From a bacterium (GTDB lineage Bacteria; Sysuimicrobiota; Sysuimicrobiia; Sysuimicrobiales; Segetimicrobiaceae), in NCBI GenBank assembly GCA_035307765.1, contig DATGHU010000016.1:1-64000 (forward strand): a DNA stretch of 64,000 nucleotides, read 5' to 3'. A program made the position numbers and the translations under genes. The notes under the pieces are model-generated. The model made no database searches. It saw only the letters and a program-made list of their open reading frames with translations, and was not told the DNA's origin. This document shows positions 34,781 to 41,584 of this stretch, piece by piece. Numbering within the stretch: position 1 is the first letter of the stretch; each line of letters opens with the position of its first letter.

Positions 34781-36019
34781 TTAGGCCGGCCTCCGCAGCA
34801 CCAGGATCGCGTTGTGCCCGCCGAATCCGAACGCGTTGGACATGGCGACGTCGACCCGCGCCGCCCGCGGCGTGTTCGGGATGTAGTCGAGGTCGCACTG
34901 GGGGTCCGGGACCTCGTAGTTAATGGTGGGGGGGAGCATCTCACGCTCGATGGCGAGGGCGCAGGTGATCGCCTCCACGCCGCCCGCGGCGCCGAGCAGG
35001 TGTGAGGTCATCGATTTGGTCGAGCTGATCGGAACGCGGTGGGCGTCTTTGCCGAACACCCGCTTGATCGCCACCGTCTCAAACCGATCGTTGTAGATGG
35101 TGCTCGTGCCGTGGGCGTTGATGTAGCCGATCTGTGTCGGGTCCAGTTTCGCGTCCTTGAGGGCGAGCTGCATCGCCCGTGCCGCCCCGTCGCCCTCCGG
35201 GTCCGGTTGGGTGATGTGGAAGGCGTCGGCGCTGGCGCCGTATCCGACCACCTCGGCATAGATGTGCGCGCCGCGGCGCTCGGCCTGGTCCCACTCTTCC
35301 AGGAGCACGATCCCGGCTCCCTCCCCCATCACGAACCCGTCTCGTTCGGCGTCGAACGGCCGCACGGCCCGCTCCGGCTCGTCGTTGCGCGTGCTCATCG
35401 CCTTCATCGTGCAGAACCCGGCCAGGCTCAGCGGGGTCAGCGCTGCCTCACTGCCGCCGCAGATCATCGCCGCGGCGTCATCCCGCTGGATCGTTCGGAA
35501 GGCGTCGCCGATCGCATGGCCGCTGGTGGCACAGGCCGAAACGACGGAGACGTTGGGACCCTTCGCGCCGGTCGCAATGCTGACGATGCCGGACGCCATG
35601 TTGATGATGATCATCGGGACGAAGAACGCGCTGACCCGGCCGGGGCCGCGCTCCAGCAACACCTGGTGCTGCTCCTCCCAGGTTTTGGCCCCGCCGATCC
35701 CTGAACCGATGATCACCCCGACCCGCTCGGCATTCTGCGGGGTGATCGCAAAGCCGGCGTCATCCAACGCGAGCCGGGTCGCCGCCATCGCAAACTGGAC
35801 GAACCGATCGTTGCGACGGACCTCTTTGCGTTCCATGTACTGCGCGGGATCGAATTCTCTGATCTCGCCGGCGATCTGGGTCTCGTACGGAGATGGATCG
35901 AACGCCGTGAGTCGACGGACCCCCGAGCGGCCCTCCATCAACCCGGTCCAGAAGGCGTCCTTGCCGATGCCGATCGGGGTGATGACGCCGATCCCCGTCA
36001 GCGCCACTCGCTTGGTCAT
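34781..36019 (-). CDS. fabF: Beta-ketoacyl-ACP synthase II
   Basis: Condenses malonyl-ACP with growing acyl-ACP in fatty-acid elongation. The thiolase-fold enzyme of 412 residues has the active cysteine in SACATSGHA and the two histidines in [11 protein letters not shown] and [11 protein letters not shown], the complete Cys-His-His triad. [13 protein letters not shown] is the usual start. The ATG at 36019 is preferred over an upstream frame that has no support. It lies 34 bases past acpP and is followed by rnc. Confidence 0.96.
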
Positions 36020-36053
36020 CGTGGTCCCCAGATGTCCGCCGCCCGTGCGGGAG

Positions 36054-36302
36054 CTATTCCGTCGGCGCTTCGACGTGGCTCTCGATATACTTTGCTGCCT
36101 CACCGACGGTCAAGATCTTCTCCGCCTCTTCGTCGGGGATCTCCAAATCAAACTCGTCCTCCAGCGCCATGACCAGCTCCACCACGTCGAGCGAGTCGGC
36201 TCCGAGATCCTCGACGAACTTCGACTGCGGCGTGACCTCATTCGCCTCCACGCCGAGCTGTTCTACCACTTTTGCCTTCACGCGATCGAATACCGGTGCC
36301 AT
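36054..36302 (-). CDS. acpP: Acyl carrier protein
   Basis: Carries growing acyl chains on a phosphopantetheine arm. The 82-residue acidic helical protein has the modification serine in [18 protein letters not shown], the invariant signature. It lies between fabG and fabF, as in most bacteria, and would be among the most highly expressed genes of the operon. CACCGGTAT-type sequence precedes the ATG and no strong Shine-Dalgarno is seen. Confidence 0.97.
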
Positions 36303-36326
36303 GCCACGATCACCCCCTGGATCGTC

Positions 36327-37073
36327 CTACCGCATCACCAGCCCGCCGTCGACATTCAGGACCTGCCCCGTGATATAGCTGGCTTCCTCCGAGACGAAGA
36401 ACGCCACCGCCGCGGCCACTTCTTCCGGTCGCCCGGTGCGGCCCATCGGAATATGATCGACGAACCGGGAACGCTGGTCCTCCCGGAGCGTCGCCGTCAA
36501 CCCGGCCTCAATGTACCCCGGGGAGACGACATTGGCCGTGATCCCGCGACCGGCCACCTCCTTGGCCACGGCCTTGGTAAACCCGATCACCGCGGCCTTG
36601 GCCGCGATGTAGTTCGCCTGCCCCGGGTTTCCGACCTCTGCCACGATCGAGCTGATATTGACGATCCGCCCGCGGCGCTGGCGCAGCATATCGCGCAGCG
36701 CCGCGCGTGTGCAGTAGAACGTCGAGTGCAGGTTGACCGCCAGGATCTCGTGCCAGTCCTCGTCCCGCATGCGCACGAGGAGCCCGTCGCGCGTCAGGCC
36801 GGCGTTGTTGACAAGGACATCCAACCGTCCCCGCCATTCCCCCGCCCCTTCGACCAGCCGCCGGCAGGCCTCCGCCGAGGTGATCTCCGCCTGAAGGATC
36901 GTAGCACTGCTTCCCGCCTCCTCGACCAGGCGGCGGGTACGCTCGGCGCCCTCACTGTTGTGGCCGTAGTGCACCACGATCCCCGCCCCTTCCCGGGCGA
37001 GCCGAACGGCCACCGCCGATCCGATCCCGCCGGACGCTCCGGTGACGAGCGCAACGTATTCCGGCAGGCTCAT
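36327..37073 (-). CDS. fabG: 3-oxoacyl-ACP reductase
   Basis: NADPH-dependent reduction of 3-oxoacyl-ACP in fatty-acid synthesis. The 248-residue SDR has VTGASGGIGSA, NNAG, the catalytic serine in NISSIVAE, and an intact YIAAK (Tyr-x3-Lys), unlike the two other SDRs in this window. YITGQVLNVDGGLV is the family end. Its ATG overlaps the fabD stop as ATGA, and acpP follows after 24 bases. Confidence 0.97.
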   Translation of the reverse strand: MSLPEYVALVTGASGGIGSAVAVRLAREGAGIVVHYGHNSEGAERTRRLVEEAGSSATILQAEITSAEACRRLVEGAGEWRGRLDVLVNNAGLTRDGLLVRMRDEDWHEILAVNLHSTFYCTRAALRDMLRQRRGRIVNISSIVAEVGNPGQANYIAAKAAVIGFTKAVAKEVAGRGITANVVSPGYIEAGLTATLREDQRSRFVDHIPMGRTGRPEEVAAAVAFFVSEEASYITGQVLNVDGGLVMR

Positions 37074-38047
37074 CGGACCTGGAGCCCGGCAAGGGCGACC
37101 GTCGCGTCATTGCGGGAGGCGGGGTCCTCGATGTGATAGGGAGCCGCCGCCACCGTCTTGCGGATCATGCCGCAGAGCGTCGTACCTGGGCCGATCTCCA
37201 CAAACTGCCGCACCCCCGTCTCCCAAATCGACCGGACCGACTGTTCCCAGAGCACGGGAGACGTCACCTGCGCGAGCAGCGCCCGACGAATGTCGTCGAC
37301 TTCCCGGATCGGGGTCGCCGACACGTTCGCCACCACGGGGATATTCGCGGCGCGGAAGGGCGTCCGCTCGAGGTCGGCGGCGAGCCGCTCGGCGGCCGGC
37401 CGCATCAGGCTCGTGTGAAACGGCGCGCTGACTGCGAGCTGGATGGTGCGCCGGGCCCCGCTGGCCTTGGCCGCGGCCGCGGCCTCCCTGACGGCACGGG
37501 CCTCTCCGCCGATGACGATCTGGCCGGGGCTGTTGAAGTTGGCCACCTCCACCACCCCGAGGTGGGCGTGCGCCGCGCACAGGGCCCGCGCCTGGTCCGC
37601 GGTAAGACCCATCACCGCGACCATCATCGTGTCCTGCCCGCCGGTCGCCTCCTCCATGTAGATGCCCCTGAGTCGGACCAACCTGACCGCGTCCTCGAGC
37701 CGAAGCGCGCCGGCACACACCAGCGCCGTGTACTCACCCAGGCTCAATCCGGCGGCGATCTCCGGGGCGGCGGGAAACGTGGCCAGGCAGGCGAGGCTCG
37801 TGACCAGAATCGCGGGCTGCGTATTCGCGGTGGCGCGGAGCGCCTCCTCCGGGCCTTCGGTGCAGAGGCGCAGAACGTCGAAGCCGATCGCCGCGCTCGC
37901 CCGCTCGTACACCGCGCGGGCCTGGGGAAATTGCTCGGCGAGATCTCGCCCCATGCCCACGTACTGTGCTCCCTGCCCCGGGAACACCGCGGCGAACCCG
38001 GCCGGCGCCGTCGGGCTCAGCGGGCGCCCCCCCAGCGGATCGTGCAC
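37070..38047 (-). CDS. fabD: Malonyl-CoA:ACP transacylase
   Basis: Transfers malonyl from CoA to ACP. The 325-residue alpha/beta hydrolase-like enzyme has the oxyanion motif FPGQGAQYVGMG, the nucleophile in GLSLGEYTALV, and the acid/base histidine in SAPFHTSLM. GPGTTLCGMIRKT ends the core. The called start overlaps the 3' end of fabH by 31 bases, and no better start is obvious. It stands between fabH and fabG, the conserved order. Confidence 0.95.
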   Translation of the reverse strand: MHDPLGGRPLSPTAPAGFAAVFPGQGAQYVGMGRDLAEQFPQARAVYERASAAIGFDVLRLCTEGPEEALRATANTQPAILVTSLACLATFPAAPEIAAGLSLGEYTALVCAGALRLEDAVRLVRLRGIYMEEATGGQDTMMVAVMGLTADQARALCAAHAHLGVVEVANFNSPGQIVIGGEARAVREAAAAAKASGARRTIQLAVSAPFHTSLMRPAAERLAADLERTPFRAANIPVVANVSATPIREVDDIRRALLAQVTSPVLWEQSVRSIWETGVRQFVEIGPGTTLCGMIRKTVAAAPYHIEDPASRNDATVALAGLQVR

Positions 38048-39012
38048 GCGCCCCAGGTGAATCCACCACCGAACGTGACGAGGACCCCGAGCCGCCCCTC
38101 TTGGACCTGTCCGGCTTGGACCGCTTCGTAGAGCGCAACCGGCACGGACGCGGCCGAGGTATTCCCATACCGCTGAACGTTGACGAAAAACTTCTCGAGC
38201 GGCACGCGGAGGCGGCGGGCCGCGGATTCAATGATCCGGATGTTGGCTTGATGCGGGATCACGAAATCGACATCGGTCGGTTCGAGTTCGGCCCGCCGTA
38301 GGGCCTCCGCCGCCGCCTGCGGCAGCGCCCGCACCGCGAACTGGTACACCTCGGGGCCATTCATGGCGATGAAGTGCTCCCCCCGCTCGACCGTGTCGAA
38401 CGACGCCGGTCGACGGCTGCCGCCGGCCGACAGGTAGAGCGCTCCCCCGCCGGACCCGTCCCCTCCCAAGCAGAAGGAGAGGAATCCCTGTCCCGGCCGG
38501 GCCGGGCGCAACACCGCCGCGCCGGCGCAGTCGCCGAAGAGCACGCACGTGGCGCGGTCCCGCCAGTTGGTGATCCGGGAGAGGGTCTCTGCGCCCACGA
38601 CCAGGACGGTCTCCGCCTGGCCCGAGGCGATGGCGCCGTGCCCGACGCTCAGTCCGTAGACAAAGCTCGAGCAGGCCGCCGACACATCGAGACACCCAAC
38701 GGTACGGGCTCCCAGTCGTTTCTGCAGCAGACAGGCGACGCTGGGGAACATCGTGTCGGGGGTCGTGGTCCCCACGACGATGTAGTCGACGTCCGTCGCT
38801 TTCAGGCCGGCCTGGTCGAGCGCCTCGCGCGCCGCGCCGTAGGCGAGATCGGAGGTGGCCTCCGTCTCCGCGGCGATCCTGCGCTCGGACACGCCGGTGC
38901 GCGACCGGATCCACTCGTCGGTGGTCTCGACCGTTTTCGCCAGCTCGTCGTTGGTCAAGATCCGTTCGGGAAGGTAGCGACCCAGTCCGACGATCGTGGA
39001 TCCCGTGTACAC
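38017..39012 (-). CDS. fabH: Beta-ketoacyl-ACP synthase III
   Basis: Starts fatty-acid chains by condensing acetyl-CoA with malonyl-ACP. VGLGRYLPERILTNDEL is the typical N-terminus. The catalytic cysteine is in DVSAACSSF, the histidine in PHQANIRI, and the asparagine in GNTSAASVP. GTG at 39012 is the chosen start, with GGGAG six bases upstream; it gives 331 residues, the usual size, whereas the longer frame would overlap plsX. It lies between plsX and fabD. Confidence 0.95.
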   Translation of the reverse strand: MYTGSTIVGLGRYLPERILTNDELAKTVETTDEWIRSRTGVSERRIAAETEATSDLAYGAAREALDQAGLKATDVDYIVVGTTTPDTMFPSVACLLQKRLGARTVGCLDVSAACSSFVYGLSVGHGAIASGQAETVLVVGAETLSRITNWRDRATCVLFGDCAGAAVLRPARPGQGFLSFCLGGDGSGGGALYLSAGGSRRPASFDTVERGEHFIAMNGPEVYQFAVRALPQAAAEALRRAELEPTDVDFVIPHQANIRIIESAARRLRVPLEKFFVNVQRYGNTSAASVPVALYEAVQAGQVQEGRLGVLVTFGGGFTWGACTIRWGGAR

Positions 39013-39071
39013 GGCGCGCTCCCTTGATCGGTCGTGTGCGCGATCCTCAGCGATGATTGCGCGGCGTGTTG

Positions 39072-40172
39072 TCACGCGTCGGCACGCGACCGCTGGGGGA
39101 GCGGAAGCTGTCCTTCCGGTTCTCTATCCCTCGGGGTGGTGGGGGCGGGTCCGGGCGACAGGTGCGAGAGCCGAGCGATGTCGGCGCGGATGGCTTCCAC
39201 CATGCGGGAGTGGACGGAGTCCGCGGCGAGCGCGATCGAATTTCGAATCGCCTTGGCCTTGGAGCTGCCGTGGGTGATGATGCAGATCCCGTTCACCCCA
39301 AGCAGCGGCGCGCCTCCGTATTCCGTGTAATCCATCCGCCGGGCCAGGGCCCGCAGGCGCGGGGTCGCCAGGAGCACGCCCAGCCGGACGAGGATCCCCC
39401 GGCTCAGCTCCTCGCGGAGGAGCGTGAAGATCCCCACCGCCAGGCCTTCGCCGAACTTCAAGAGGAGGTTGCCGACGAAACCGTCGCAGACAGCCACATC
39501 GGCCGCTCCGCTGAAGAAGTCCCGGCCTTCAACGTTGCCGATGAAGTTGACGCCGGAGTGGCGCAGCAGATCCGCCGCCTGGATCACCGCCTCGTTCCCT
39601 TTGGTGTCCTCGGCGCCGTTGCTCATGAGCGCCAGGCGCGGCTCTGCGATTCCGAGCACCCGGTTCGCATAGACGCTGCCCATGATCGCAAATTGGAGGA
39701 GGTGCTTGGGGCGGCAGTCTACATTCGCCCCAACATCGACCATGATGGCGCGGCCCCGTAAGGTGGGCAACACCGCGGCGATCGCCGGGCGGTCGATCCC
39801 CTCAATGCGGCCGAGGGTGAGGAGCGCCGCGGCCATCGCCGCGCCGGTGTTCCCGGCGCTGACCACCGCATCGGCCTCGCCACGCCGGAGTGCCTCCGCC
39901 GCGACGAGGATCGACGCCTGGCGCTTCCGCCGGAGCGCCATCGCCGGCGCCTCCGCCATGCCAATGACCTCGGGGGCGTCCAGCACCCGAATCGGCAGCC
40001 CCGATTCCGGGTTGACCGATGCGAGCTCCTCGCTGACCCGGCTTGTCGGGCCCACCAGGATGACCTCGACGCCCAACTCCCGGGCGGCGAGGACCGCCCC
40101 CCCGACGACCTCCCGAGGGGCGTAGTCGCCGCCCATCGCGTCGATCGCGACTCGCAGCCTCGCTCCCTCCAT
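39072..40172 (-). CDS. plsX: Phosphate acyltransferase PlsX
   Basis: Converts acyl-ACP to acyl-phosphate for phospholipid synthesis, acting on the inner membrane surface. The 366-residue protein begins RVAIDAMGGDYAP, the conserved PlsX start, and has SAGNTGA, AVCDGFVGN and GVNGICIITHGSS motifs. The start at 40172 leaves 19 bases after rpmF; a longer frame overlaps rpmF and is not favoured. The C-terminal 30 residues are an unusual proline-rich tail. Confidence 0.95.
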   Translation of the reverse strand: MEGARLRVAIDAMGGDYAPREVVGGAVLAARELGVEVILVGPTSRVSEELASVNPESGLPIRVLDAPEVIGMAEAPAMALRRKRQASILVAAEALRRGEADAVVSAGNTGAAMAAALLTLGRIEGIDRPAIAAVLPTLRGRAIMVDVGANVDCRPKHLLQFAIMGSVYANRVLGIAEPRLALMSNGAEDTKGNEAVIQAADLLRHSGVNFIGNVEGRDFFSGAADVAVCDGFVGNLLLKFGEGLAVGIFTLLREELSRGILVRLGVLLATPRLRALARRMDYTEYGGAPLLGVNGICIITHGSSKAKAIRNSIALAADSVHSRMVEAIRADIARLSHLSPGPAPTTPRDREPEGQLPLPQRSRADA

Positions 40173-40191
40173 CGGCGTCTCGGTCCGCTCC

Positions 40192-40392
40192 CTACCCGCC
40201 GGTTTTCTCCTCGGCGGGCTTGACCTCAATCACTTGCTTTCCCGCGTAATATCCGCACGCTGGACAGACCCGGTGGGGCGCCATCCGGGCATGGCACTGA
40301 GGACACTCCACCAGCGTCACCGGCTGTACCTTAAAGTGCGCGCGCCGGCTCGCCGTGCGCGCCTTGCTGAATCGCCGTTTTGTCAGTCCCAT
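40192..40392 (-). CDS. rpmF: 50S ribosomal protein L32
   Basis: A 66-residue basic ribosomal protein. The N-terminus is MGLTKRRFSKART, somewhat different from the common MAVPKR start. CPQC and CPAC form a complete zinc ribbon, so this is the zinc-binding form. Between yceD and plsX it occupies its standard position; production of the ribosomal and lipid genes is coupled by co-transcription. Confidence 0.96.
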   Translation of the reverse strand: MGLTKRRFSKARTASRRAHFKVQPVTLVECPQCHARMAPHRVCPACGYYAGKQVIEVKPAEEKTGG

Positions 40393-40395
40393 CCG

Positions 40396-40944
40396 TCACT
40401 CCTTCTCCGTCGTCGCCCCGCCCTTATGCACGGTCGCCCACTGCCGCAACACCTGAAGTCGCGGATCAACGGGATCCTCCGCACAGCCGCACGCGCCGGC
40501 GTTCAAGTCCGCGCCGCAGGTCGGACACAATCCCCGGCACCCCTCCCGGCACCTCGGCGCGAGGGGGAGGGCCAGAATGAGGTGCTGCCGGACGACCTCG
40601 GTCACGTCAATCGTATCATCGGGTCCGACCGGAGTCACAAAGTCGTCCGGACCCAACTCCGCCTCCACCGCTGCGGTGGCGGTCGCCGGACGGCCGAACT
40701 CTTCGGCGATGGAGAACTCGAGCGGCTGCTCGAATCGGACCAGGCACGCTCCGCACACGAGACTCAGTGCCGTTCGCACCCTTCCCGAGAGGCACACCGT
40801 CCGCCCGGTGCTGGCGACCGTGAGCGCCCCTTCGACGGGCCGCAGGAGCACCGCGTCCTCGGCAGGCGGCTCGCACGGCTCGGAGTACGCCAACGTCCGA
40901 ACGGCGCCCCGATCAGCCAGCAGTTCGCCGATGTTAACCCGCAC
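40396..40944 (-). CDS. yceD: DUF177/YceD-family protein
   Basis: A 182-residue protein of the DUF177/YceD family, which is linked to 23S rRNA metabolism in plants and some bacteria and is almost always encoded just before rpmF. LSGRVRTALSLVCGACLVRFEQPLE contains the conserved CxxCLxxF motif. The C-terminal LPLAPRCREGCRGLCPTCG supplies further cysteines typical of the family. GAGGTG precedes the ATG. It is the first gene of the fatty-acid operon. Confidence 0.92.
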   Translation of the reverse strand: MRVNIGELLADRGAVRTLAYSEPCEPPAEDAVLLRPVEGALTVASTGRTVCLSGRVRTALSLVCGACLVRFEQPLEFSIAEEFGRPATATAAVEAELGPDDFVTPVGPDDTIDVTEVVRQHLILALPLAPRCREGCRGLCPTCGADLNAGACGCAEDPVDPRLQVLRQWATVHKGGATTEKE

Positions 40945-40960
40945 ATCGCCACCTCACGAC

Positions 40961-41009
40961 GTGTGCCCGGACGGCCTATCCCGCGAGGGGGGGTAACCGC
41001 CGGGCACAC
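40961..41009 (-). promoter_or_regulatory. 5' leader hairpin of the fatty-acid operon mRNA
   Basis: CCGGGCACAC at 41000-41009 and GTGTGCCCGG at 40961-40970 are perfect complements with a 29-base loop. Placed by the promoter, transcription should start at or next to 41009, so the mRNA would begin with this hairpin. It ends 16 bases before the yceD start codon. It could stabilise the 5' end or control translation of yceD. Confidence 0.5.
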
Positions 41010-41015
41010 CGTCTG

Positions 41016-41045
41016 ATTATACGGACGCCGGTTCGGCGTTGTCAA
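41016..41045 (-). promoter_or_regulatory. Consensus sigma70 promoter of the yceD-rpmF-fab operon
   Basis: On the minus strand a perfect TTGACA (41045-41040) is followed after 18 bases by a perfect TATAAT (41021-41016). The spacer contains the inverted repeat ACGCCG-AAC-CGGCGT, a candidate operator between the two boxes. The -35 overlaps the stop codon of the upstream coiled-coil gene. The promoter would drive yceD, rpmF, plsX, fabH, fabD, fabG, acpP, fabF, rnc and the HIT gene. Confidence 0.85.
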
Positions 41046-41584
41046 GAGACGGTAACTTTGCCGTTGTCGACCCGCGACGAGGTCTGCGCTTGCCCCCCGC
41101 TCCTAGCCCCGGTCCGCTCCGCGAGGACCGCCTTGCCGCGCTGCACCGTCGCGAGGATCCGTGCCACCTCGCGCTCCAGGCGCTCCAGGACGGTCAGCGC
41201 ATAGAGGTCGGCGCCGCGTCGGGTCTCCTCCGCGTCTCGCACCGCCTGTTCCCGAATTTGCTGGAGTTGTTGCTCGGCGGCCCGGGCAAGCGTCCCGTCC
41301 TCGATCGCCCGGCGCGCGTGATCCTCGGCTTCGAGGACGATGCGCCGTGCTTCGTCCTGCGCGCGCCGCAGCACCGTCTCCGCTTCTGCCCCCACCGCCG
41401 CCGCTCGCTTGGCATCGGTGGACAGCGCCTCACGGAGGCGTTGCATCAACTGCTGAACTTCTTCGTCCCATGCGGCGCGGCGGCCCGGGGAAAACCGCGG
41501 CGGTCCCGCGGCCAGGAGCGCATCGAGGCGCTCCAGGCAATCTGGGATGGATGCGGGGATCGAGGATCGACCTGCCGTTGCCAT
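41042..41584 (-). CDS. Coiled-coil protein, ATP-synthase-subunit-b-like
   Basis: A 180-residue soluble protein of unknown function. Residues 45-165 are a long charged helix (AETVLRRAQDEARRIVLEAEDHARRAIEDG) of the type seen in ATP synthase b/E subunits and DivIVA-related proteins; such matches mostly reflect coiled-coil character. It lies five bases after coaD and ends inside the fatty-acid operon promoter. Small coiled-coil genes occur at this location in several Gram-positive relatives. A scaffold role in division or envelope organisation is only a guess. Confidence 0.7.
   Translation of the reverse strand: MATAGRSSIPASIPDCLERLDALLAAGPPRFSPGRRAAWDEEVQQLMQRLREALSTDAKRAAAVGAEAETVLRRAQDEARRIVLEAEDHARRAIEDGTLARAAEQQLQQIREQAVRDAEETRRGADLYALTVLERLEREVARILATVQRGKAVLAERTGARSGGQAQTSSRVDNGKVTVS

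Follow-up and report, generated by a model that had tools for sequence, protein, structure and literature searches.

The window analysed here, a stretch of 64,000 nucleotides from contig DATGHU010000016.1, carries on its minus strand eight genes in the order yceD-rpmF-plsX-fabH-fabD-fabG-acpP-fabF, which match the Pfam families YceD, L32, PlsX, FabH, FabD, FabG, ACP and FabF (Table 1). As the genes overlap or stand about 25 nt or less apart, a single promoter ahead of yceD should, judging from this layout, drive the whole eight-gene series. The yceD-rpmF-plsX-fab cluster is widely conserved and joins ribosome assembly to lipid synthesis; among the loci compared across the phylum, rpmF (encoding L32) directly follows yceD in 30 of 30 and a PlsX match is present in 27 of 30. 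The DUF177 protein is needed for normal accumulation of 23S rRNA, and in Escherichia coli a promoter of the yceD-rpmF operon lies ahead of yceD (PMC5049393). On the other side of the yceD promoter lies a gene for a cytidylyltransferase-family protein by Pfam, coaD by context, and between it and yceD there is a gene for a coiled-coil protein without a convincing Pfam match. Its C-terminal sequence has similar counterparts ahead of yceD in many relatives throughout the phylum.

Table 1. Features of the yceD operon, its promoter and its leader, with positions in the window
Feature	Position	Strand	Basis or remark
plsX, fabH, fabD, fabG, acpP, fabF	34781..40229	-	Pfam; start codons inside listed ORFs
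rpmF, ribosomal protein L32, CxxC zinc motif	40192..40392	-	Pfam PF01783
yceD (DUF177, large ribosomal RNA subunit accumulation protein), GTG start at 40944	40396..40944	-	Pfam PF02620, E = 2e-28
Shine-Dalgarno GAGGTGG, within conserved GNYGTGAGGTGG	40949..40955	-	5 nt past hairpin
Leader hairpin	40961..41009	-	Fold; pair counts; kept in 11/11 yceD-bearing family genomes
Hairpin 3' arm CCGGGCACAC	40970-40961	-	
Hairpin apical part, 29 nt	40999-40971	-	
Hairpin 5' arm GTGTGCCCGG	41009-41000	-	
-10 hexamer TATAAT	41016..41021	-	Promoter scan
Promoter spacer, 18 bp, ACGCCGAACCGGCGTCCG	41022..41039	-	Sequence
Dyad ACGCCG-AAC-CGGCGT, 15 bp, in promoter spacer	41025-41039	-	Sequence
-35 hexamer TTGACA	41040..41045	-	Promoter scan
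Coiled-coil protein gene	41042-41584	-	No convincing Pfam match

The promoter and the dyad in its spacer

A promoter scan places a sigma-70 promoter with a 12/12 match, TTGACA-18-TATAAT, on the minus strand ahead of yceD, where 0.1 promoter-like sites are expected in shuffles of the same region; the near-perfect fab-operon promoter named in a sequence-only reading of this DNA is thus confirmed. Its -35 hexamer overlaps the TGA stop codon of the coiled-coil gene. When 39 yceD loci of the phylum were examined, 18 had the perfect TTGACA-18-TATAAT and others had close variants (for instance, TTGAAA-18-TATACT), so that a near-perfect promoter is a conserved property of the yceD operon across the phylum. 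Within the family the -10 hexamer is TATAAT or TATGAT, and GGCGTCCG, which adjoins it, is common to most members. Over much of the phylum (L001-L030, L179-L189) the perfect TTGACA-18-TATAAT is retained, its spacer being 18 bp rather than 17 bp; several promoters of family f6 contain a CCAAAAACC tract in the spacer, and in f2 promoters CTAAGCC precedes TATACT.

The same reading had pointed to the inverted repeat ACGCCG-AAC-CGGCGT within the spacer, which is indeed there, and had proposed it as a repressor site. A perfect 6-3-6 dyad inside the spacer of a perfect promoter does invite the idea of a repressor or MerR-like operator for the fatty-acid genes, but we consider this very improbable. Perfect dyads of at least 6 bp arise in 0.8-1.2% of random 18-mers of the same GC content, and ACGCCGN3CGGCGT has four exact copies in the 3.8-Mb genome compared to one for the reversed control, so that the dyad taken alone is weak evidence. 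Further copies had been suggested as something to seek near lipid genes; the three that exist all lie inside long open frames. The dyad is confined to one genome, being absent from all the other 38 yceD promoters that we compared across the phylum, where 18-bp spacers go without it and the longest dyad arm is 4 bp. MerR promoters have spacers of 19-20 bp; the 18-bp spacer and the unconserved dyad both speak against a MerR-type operator. The spacer dyad is thus most likely a chance occurrence, as far as its distribution among genomes can tell. Of the two repeats singled out in the sequence-only reading, it is the second, the leader hairpin, that is kept in relatives.

A conserved hairpin in the yceD leader

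The predicted transcription start (41009), the seventh base after the -10 hexamer and hence the usual +1, is the first base of this hairpin, whose 10-bp stem (GTGTGCCCGG/CCGGGCACAC) continues in the predicted fold into an inner stem that has a bulge of 1 nt. As the sequence-only reading expected, the transcript should begin with this 10-bp hairpin ahead of yceD, and the hairpin itself is conserved. A hairpin as good or better appears in 1 of 200 dinucleotide shuffles, and the minimum free energy of the whole leader is mildly unusual (z = -1.6); the significance of the hairpin rests on conservation and not on energy. An intrinsic terminator was considered and rejected, as no terminator-like site was found and the hairpin is followed by GUCGUGAGGUGG and no U run. 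The leader has no match at the gathering threshold among the Rfam 15 families, and a known RNA family was likewise rejected, the sole Rfam match up to E = 5 being a chance match to an lncRNA.

The family that carries the hairpin consists of uncultured soil bacteria of Candidatus Sysuimicrobiota (CSP1-3/ANGP1), the phylum to which named relatives assign the genome. Of the 12 family genomes one, 68% complete, gave no yceD match; the hairpin is present in all the other 11, which have yceD, always between the -10 hexamer and the yceD Shine-Dalgarno sequence, and in most members it lies close to the latter at a fixed distance. A 7-bp core, UGCCCGG/CCGGGCA, is invariant across the 11 genomes. The two arms have mean pairwise identities of 96% and 86%, the promoter spacer, which lies a few bases before the hairpin, only 60%. 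From eight of these genomes we built a covariance model, which finds one strong match per family genome (1e-6 to 1e-11), always at the yceD leader, and also recovers the three genomes left out of model building. Of the weaker model matches and second pattern matches that we inspected, most are inside coding frames or seem to be due to chance, and none has the leader arrangement. With a single strong copy per genome, and the other inspected matches coding or unrelated, we rejected the possibility that the hairpin is a dispersed element or the member of a regulon. Applied to 80 named yceD loci, the model matches only the five from the hairpin family and none of the 75 from other groups.

Paired cells make up 96.2% in the family alignment compared to 30-45% when partners are slid by one to three columns, counts that lean towards structure since the alignment was fitted to the covariance model. 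The seven core pairs never vary, while a flanking pair, number 11, shows the compensatory changes C-G, G-C and A-U; the covariation score exceeds that of all 500 shuffles, with double changes in only 2 of the 12 pairs and seven pairs invariant. The arms are 9 bp apart in seven of the 11 genomes, 10 in one (L006) and 29 in three congeners, the present genome among them. The first base of the hairpin coincides with the predicted +1 in eight of the 11, and the remaining three, all of genus g3, have 6-9 extra nucleotides at the predicted 5' end.

Outside the family, a distant genus belonging to a second family (L022, L023 and L026) has a hairpin with arms GCGCGCCCGG/CCGGGCGCGC in the orthologous position, which the covariance model finds only weakly (E 0.05-0.24). 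It is similar to the family hairpin and may share descent with it. A member of f2 (L013) has a different GC-rich hairpin just ahead of the start codon. In most of the phylum's other families this operon is retained but its leader, short and often about 30 nt long, has no such hairpin, which indicates that the hairpin is not essential to the logic of the operon. Within the genome itself a comparable stem at +1 is found at only 3 of the 16 perfect promoters (those of yceD, another gene and a tRNA leader); as only two of the 15 others have one, we rejected the idea that strong promoters in general are followed by a hairpin at +1. Two loci of this genome, L049 and L052, pair perfect promoters with strong stems at +1, one of them being the tRNA leader.

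What the hairpin may do

A hairpin kept almost unchanged throughout the family is probably either a control switch or a protective cap. Our best explanation, held tentatively and at somewhat short of an even chance, is that the yceD-L32 operon has a leader RNA acting in cis and specific to the lineage, which probably serves autogenous translational control by L32 or YceD. The strong sigma-70 promoter would transcribe yceD-rpmF-plsX-fab into an mRNA that starts with the hairpin, which would act in cis. An operon product in excess over rRNA, most likely L32 or else YceD, would bind the paired core, and the bound hairpin would hinder the 30S subunit at the Shine-Dalgarno sequence next to it. Expression of yceD would then fall and, through the tight spacing of the genes, that of rpmF and the lipid genes too, so that membrane-lipid synthesis would be tied to ribosome output. 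Specific recognition by way of a dedicated cis element is favoured because the sequence of the helix is conserved beyond what structure demands, because there is one copy per genome and because the Shine-Dalgarno sequence is so close. Counting against it, what is conserved is a perfect helix in which no loop or bulge is kept, which is unusual for protein recognition of RNA; the absence of the hairpin from most other families of the phylum, and of a match to the core in the partial 23S rRNA available, also count against it.

The main rival is a 5'-terminal stabiliser of the ompA type, in which the hairpin would sequester the 5' triphosphate end, hinder RppH and the RNases that depend on the 5' end, and so prolong the life of the operon mRNA with no specific ligand. 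It would explain why the first base of the hairpin lies exactly at the predicted start in most members, and 5' hairpins are reported to hamper RppH in converting the 5' end and to be able to make bla mRNA more stable (review PMC3997798). What it does not explain are the invariant core and the g3 tails. A stabiliser needs structure only, and seven pairs without one compensatory swap are then unexpected; genus g3 retains the same core behind its longer 5' end, even though the pyrophosphohydrolase of Bacillus subtilis requires only 2-3 unpaired 5' nucleotides (PMC3997798); and only two of the genome's 15 other perfect promoters are followed by a stem of this kind. We regard a stabiliser as rather unlikely. 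In a further alternative the RNA hairpin would be incidental, and a dimeric transcription factor would bind the palindrome GTGTGCCCGG-N9-CCGGGCACAC downstream of the start as DNA and repress the operon. Arms that are invariant in sequence rather than covarying suit such an operator, and since the conserved part is a perfect helix, invariance of the core is just what it would predict; the 9-bp spacing in the majority of genomes is also in its favour. A dimer would normally not tolerate the spacings of 10 or 29 bp, though the latter adds 20 bp, or about two helical turns, and with seven members at 9 bp and three with 20 bp more, variation in loop length is not decisive against DNA binding. However, the inner pairs 11 and 12 mostly stay complementary through their changes, the site is single in the genome, no adjacent gene encodes a regulator and the assembly lacks FapR. 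A DNA operator is accordingly less likely than either a leader RNA or a 5'-end stabiliser, and we think it improbable.

The absence of FapR also bears on the earlier suggestion that fatty-acid control here may use a different regulator. A profile search (NF003359) found no match to a FapR gene in the G000 assembly, while the same model has matches in control genomes including B. subtilis, which supports the suggestion as far as FapR is concerned. Its emphasis on lipids is misplaced, as the first genes of the operon are yceD and rpmF and the conserved element looks like a leader RNA rather than a lipid-responsive DNA operator.

Comparison with known systems

Several known systems resemble the yceD leader in part. 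The closest are ribosomal-protein leaders such as those for L31, of which five published examples are single hairpins (PMC7247131); these are likewise short, lineage-restricted 5'-UTR hairpins of ribosomal-protein operons with a conserved structure. The yceD hairpin differs in that its conserved part is a perfect helix and not a loop or bulge, in that yceD is the first gene, and in being a candidate leader identified from sequence. The 5'-terminal stabilising stem-loops of the ompA and papA 5' UTRs share with most members a stem at the (here predicted) +1, whereas the yceD hairpin has a core conserved in sequence and, in one genus, a 5' tail of 6-9 nt. The FapR-controlled plsX/fab operons of the Firmicutes contain the same lipid genes; here no FapR gene was detected, the operon starts with yceD-rpmF, and the conserved element is a leader hairpin. 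Finally, the E. coli yceD-rpmF-plsX-fab cluster has the same gene order and a promoter upstream of yceD (PMC5049393), while the conserved hairpin is known so far only from 11 genomes of one Sysuimicrobiota family, a similar one being found in one genus of another.

We found no account of L32 or rpmF leaders or of their autoregulation in a full-text literature search whose library takes in few subscription journals. A survey of ribosomal-protein leaders lists no L32 ligand and has rpmF only as the gene downstream of the L31 leader of Corynebacteriaceae (PMC7247131), and a review (PMC10931766) does not mention L32. The hairpin is thus a candidate lineage-specific leader RNA of a ribosomal-protein operon, a lineage-restricted regulatory detail and not a new kind of system. 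That it would be the first leader RNA for a yceD-L32 operon, its short helix being recognised by L32 or by YceD itself, a DUF177 protein that is not known to have an RNA target, is a more doubtful proposition; if true, a single mRNA would link the assembly of ribosomes with the synthesis of membrane lipids. Co-control of yceD-rpmF-plsX-fab is little known outside model species, and the conserved hairpin offers a defined RNA on which feedback by L32 or YceD on the yceD operon can be tested.

Mimicry of an rRNA site is found in a quarter to half of ribosomal-protein leaders (PMC7247131). The hairpin core has no match in the partial, intron-interrupted 23S rRNA of two relatives, of which only 3' parts are available, the 5' half being missing. 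In these two family relatives (G005 and G011) the 5' half of the 23S rRNA was not found next to the interrupted parts, and the interruptions are group I introns (Rfam RF00028), two of them in G011. The introns and 23S segments lie at 1844-2100 in L149, 1941-2166 and 1656-1889 in L151, and 1291-1801 in L190 (minus strand).
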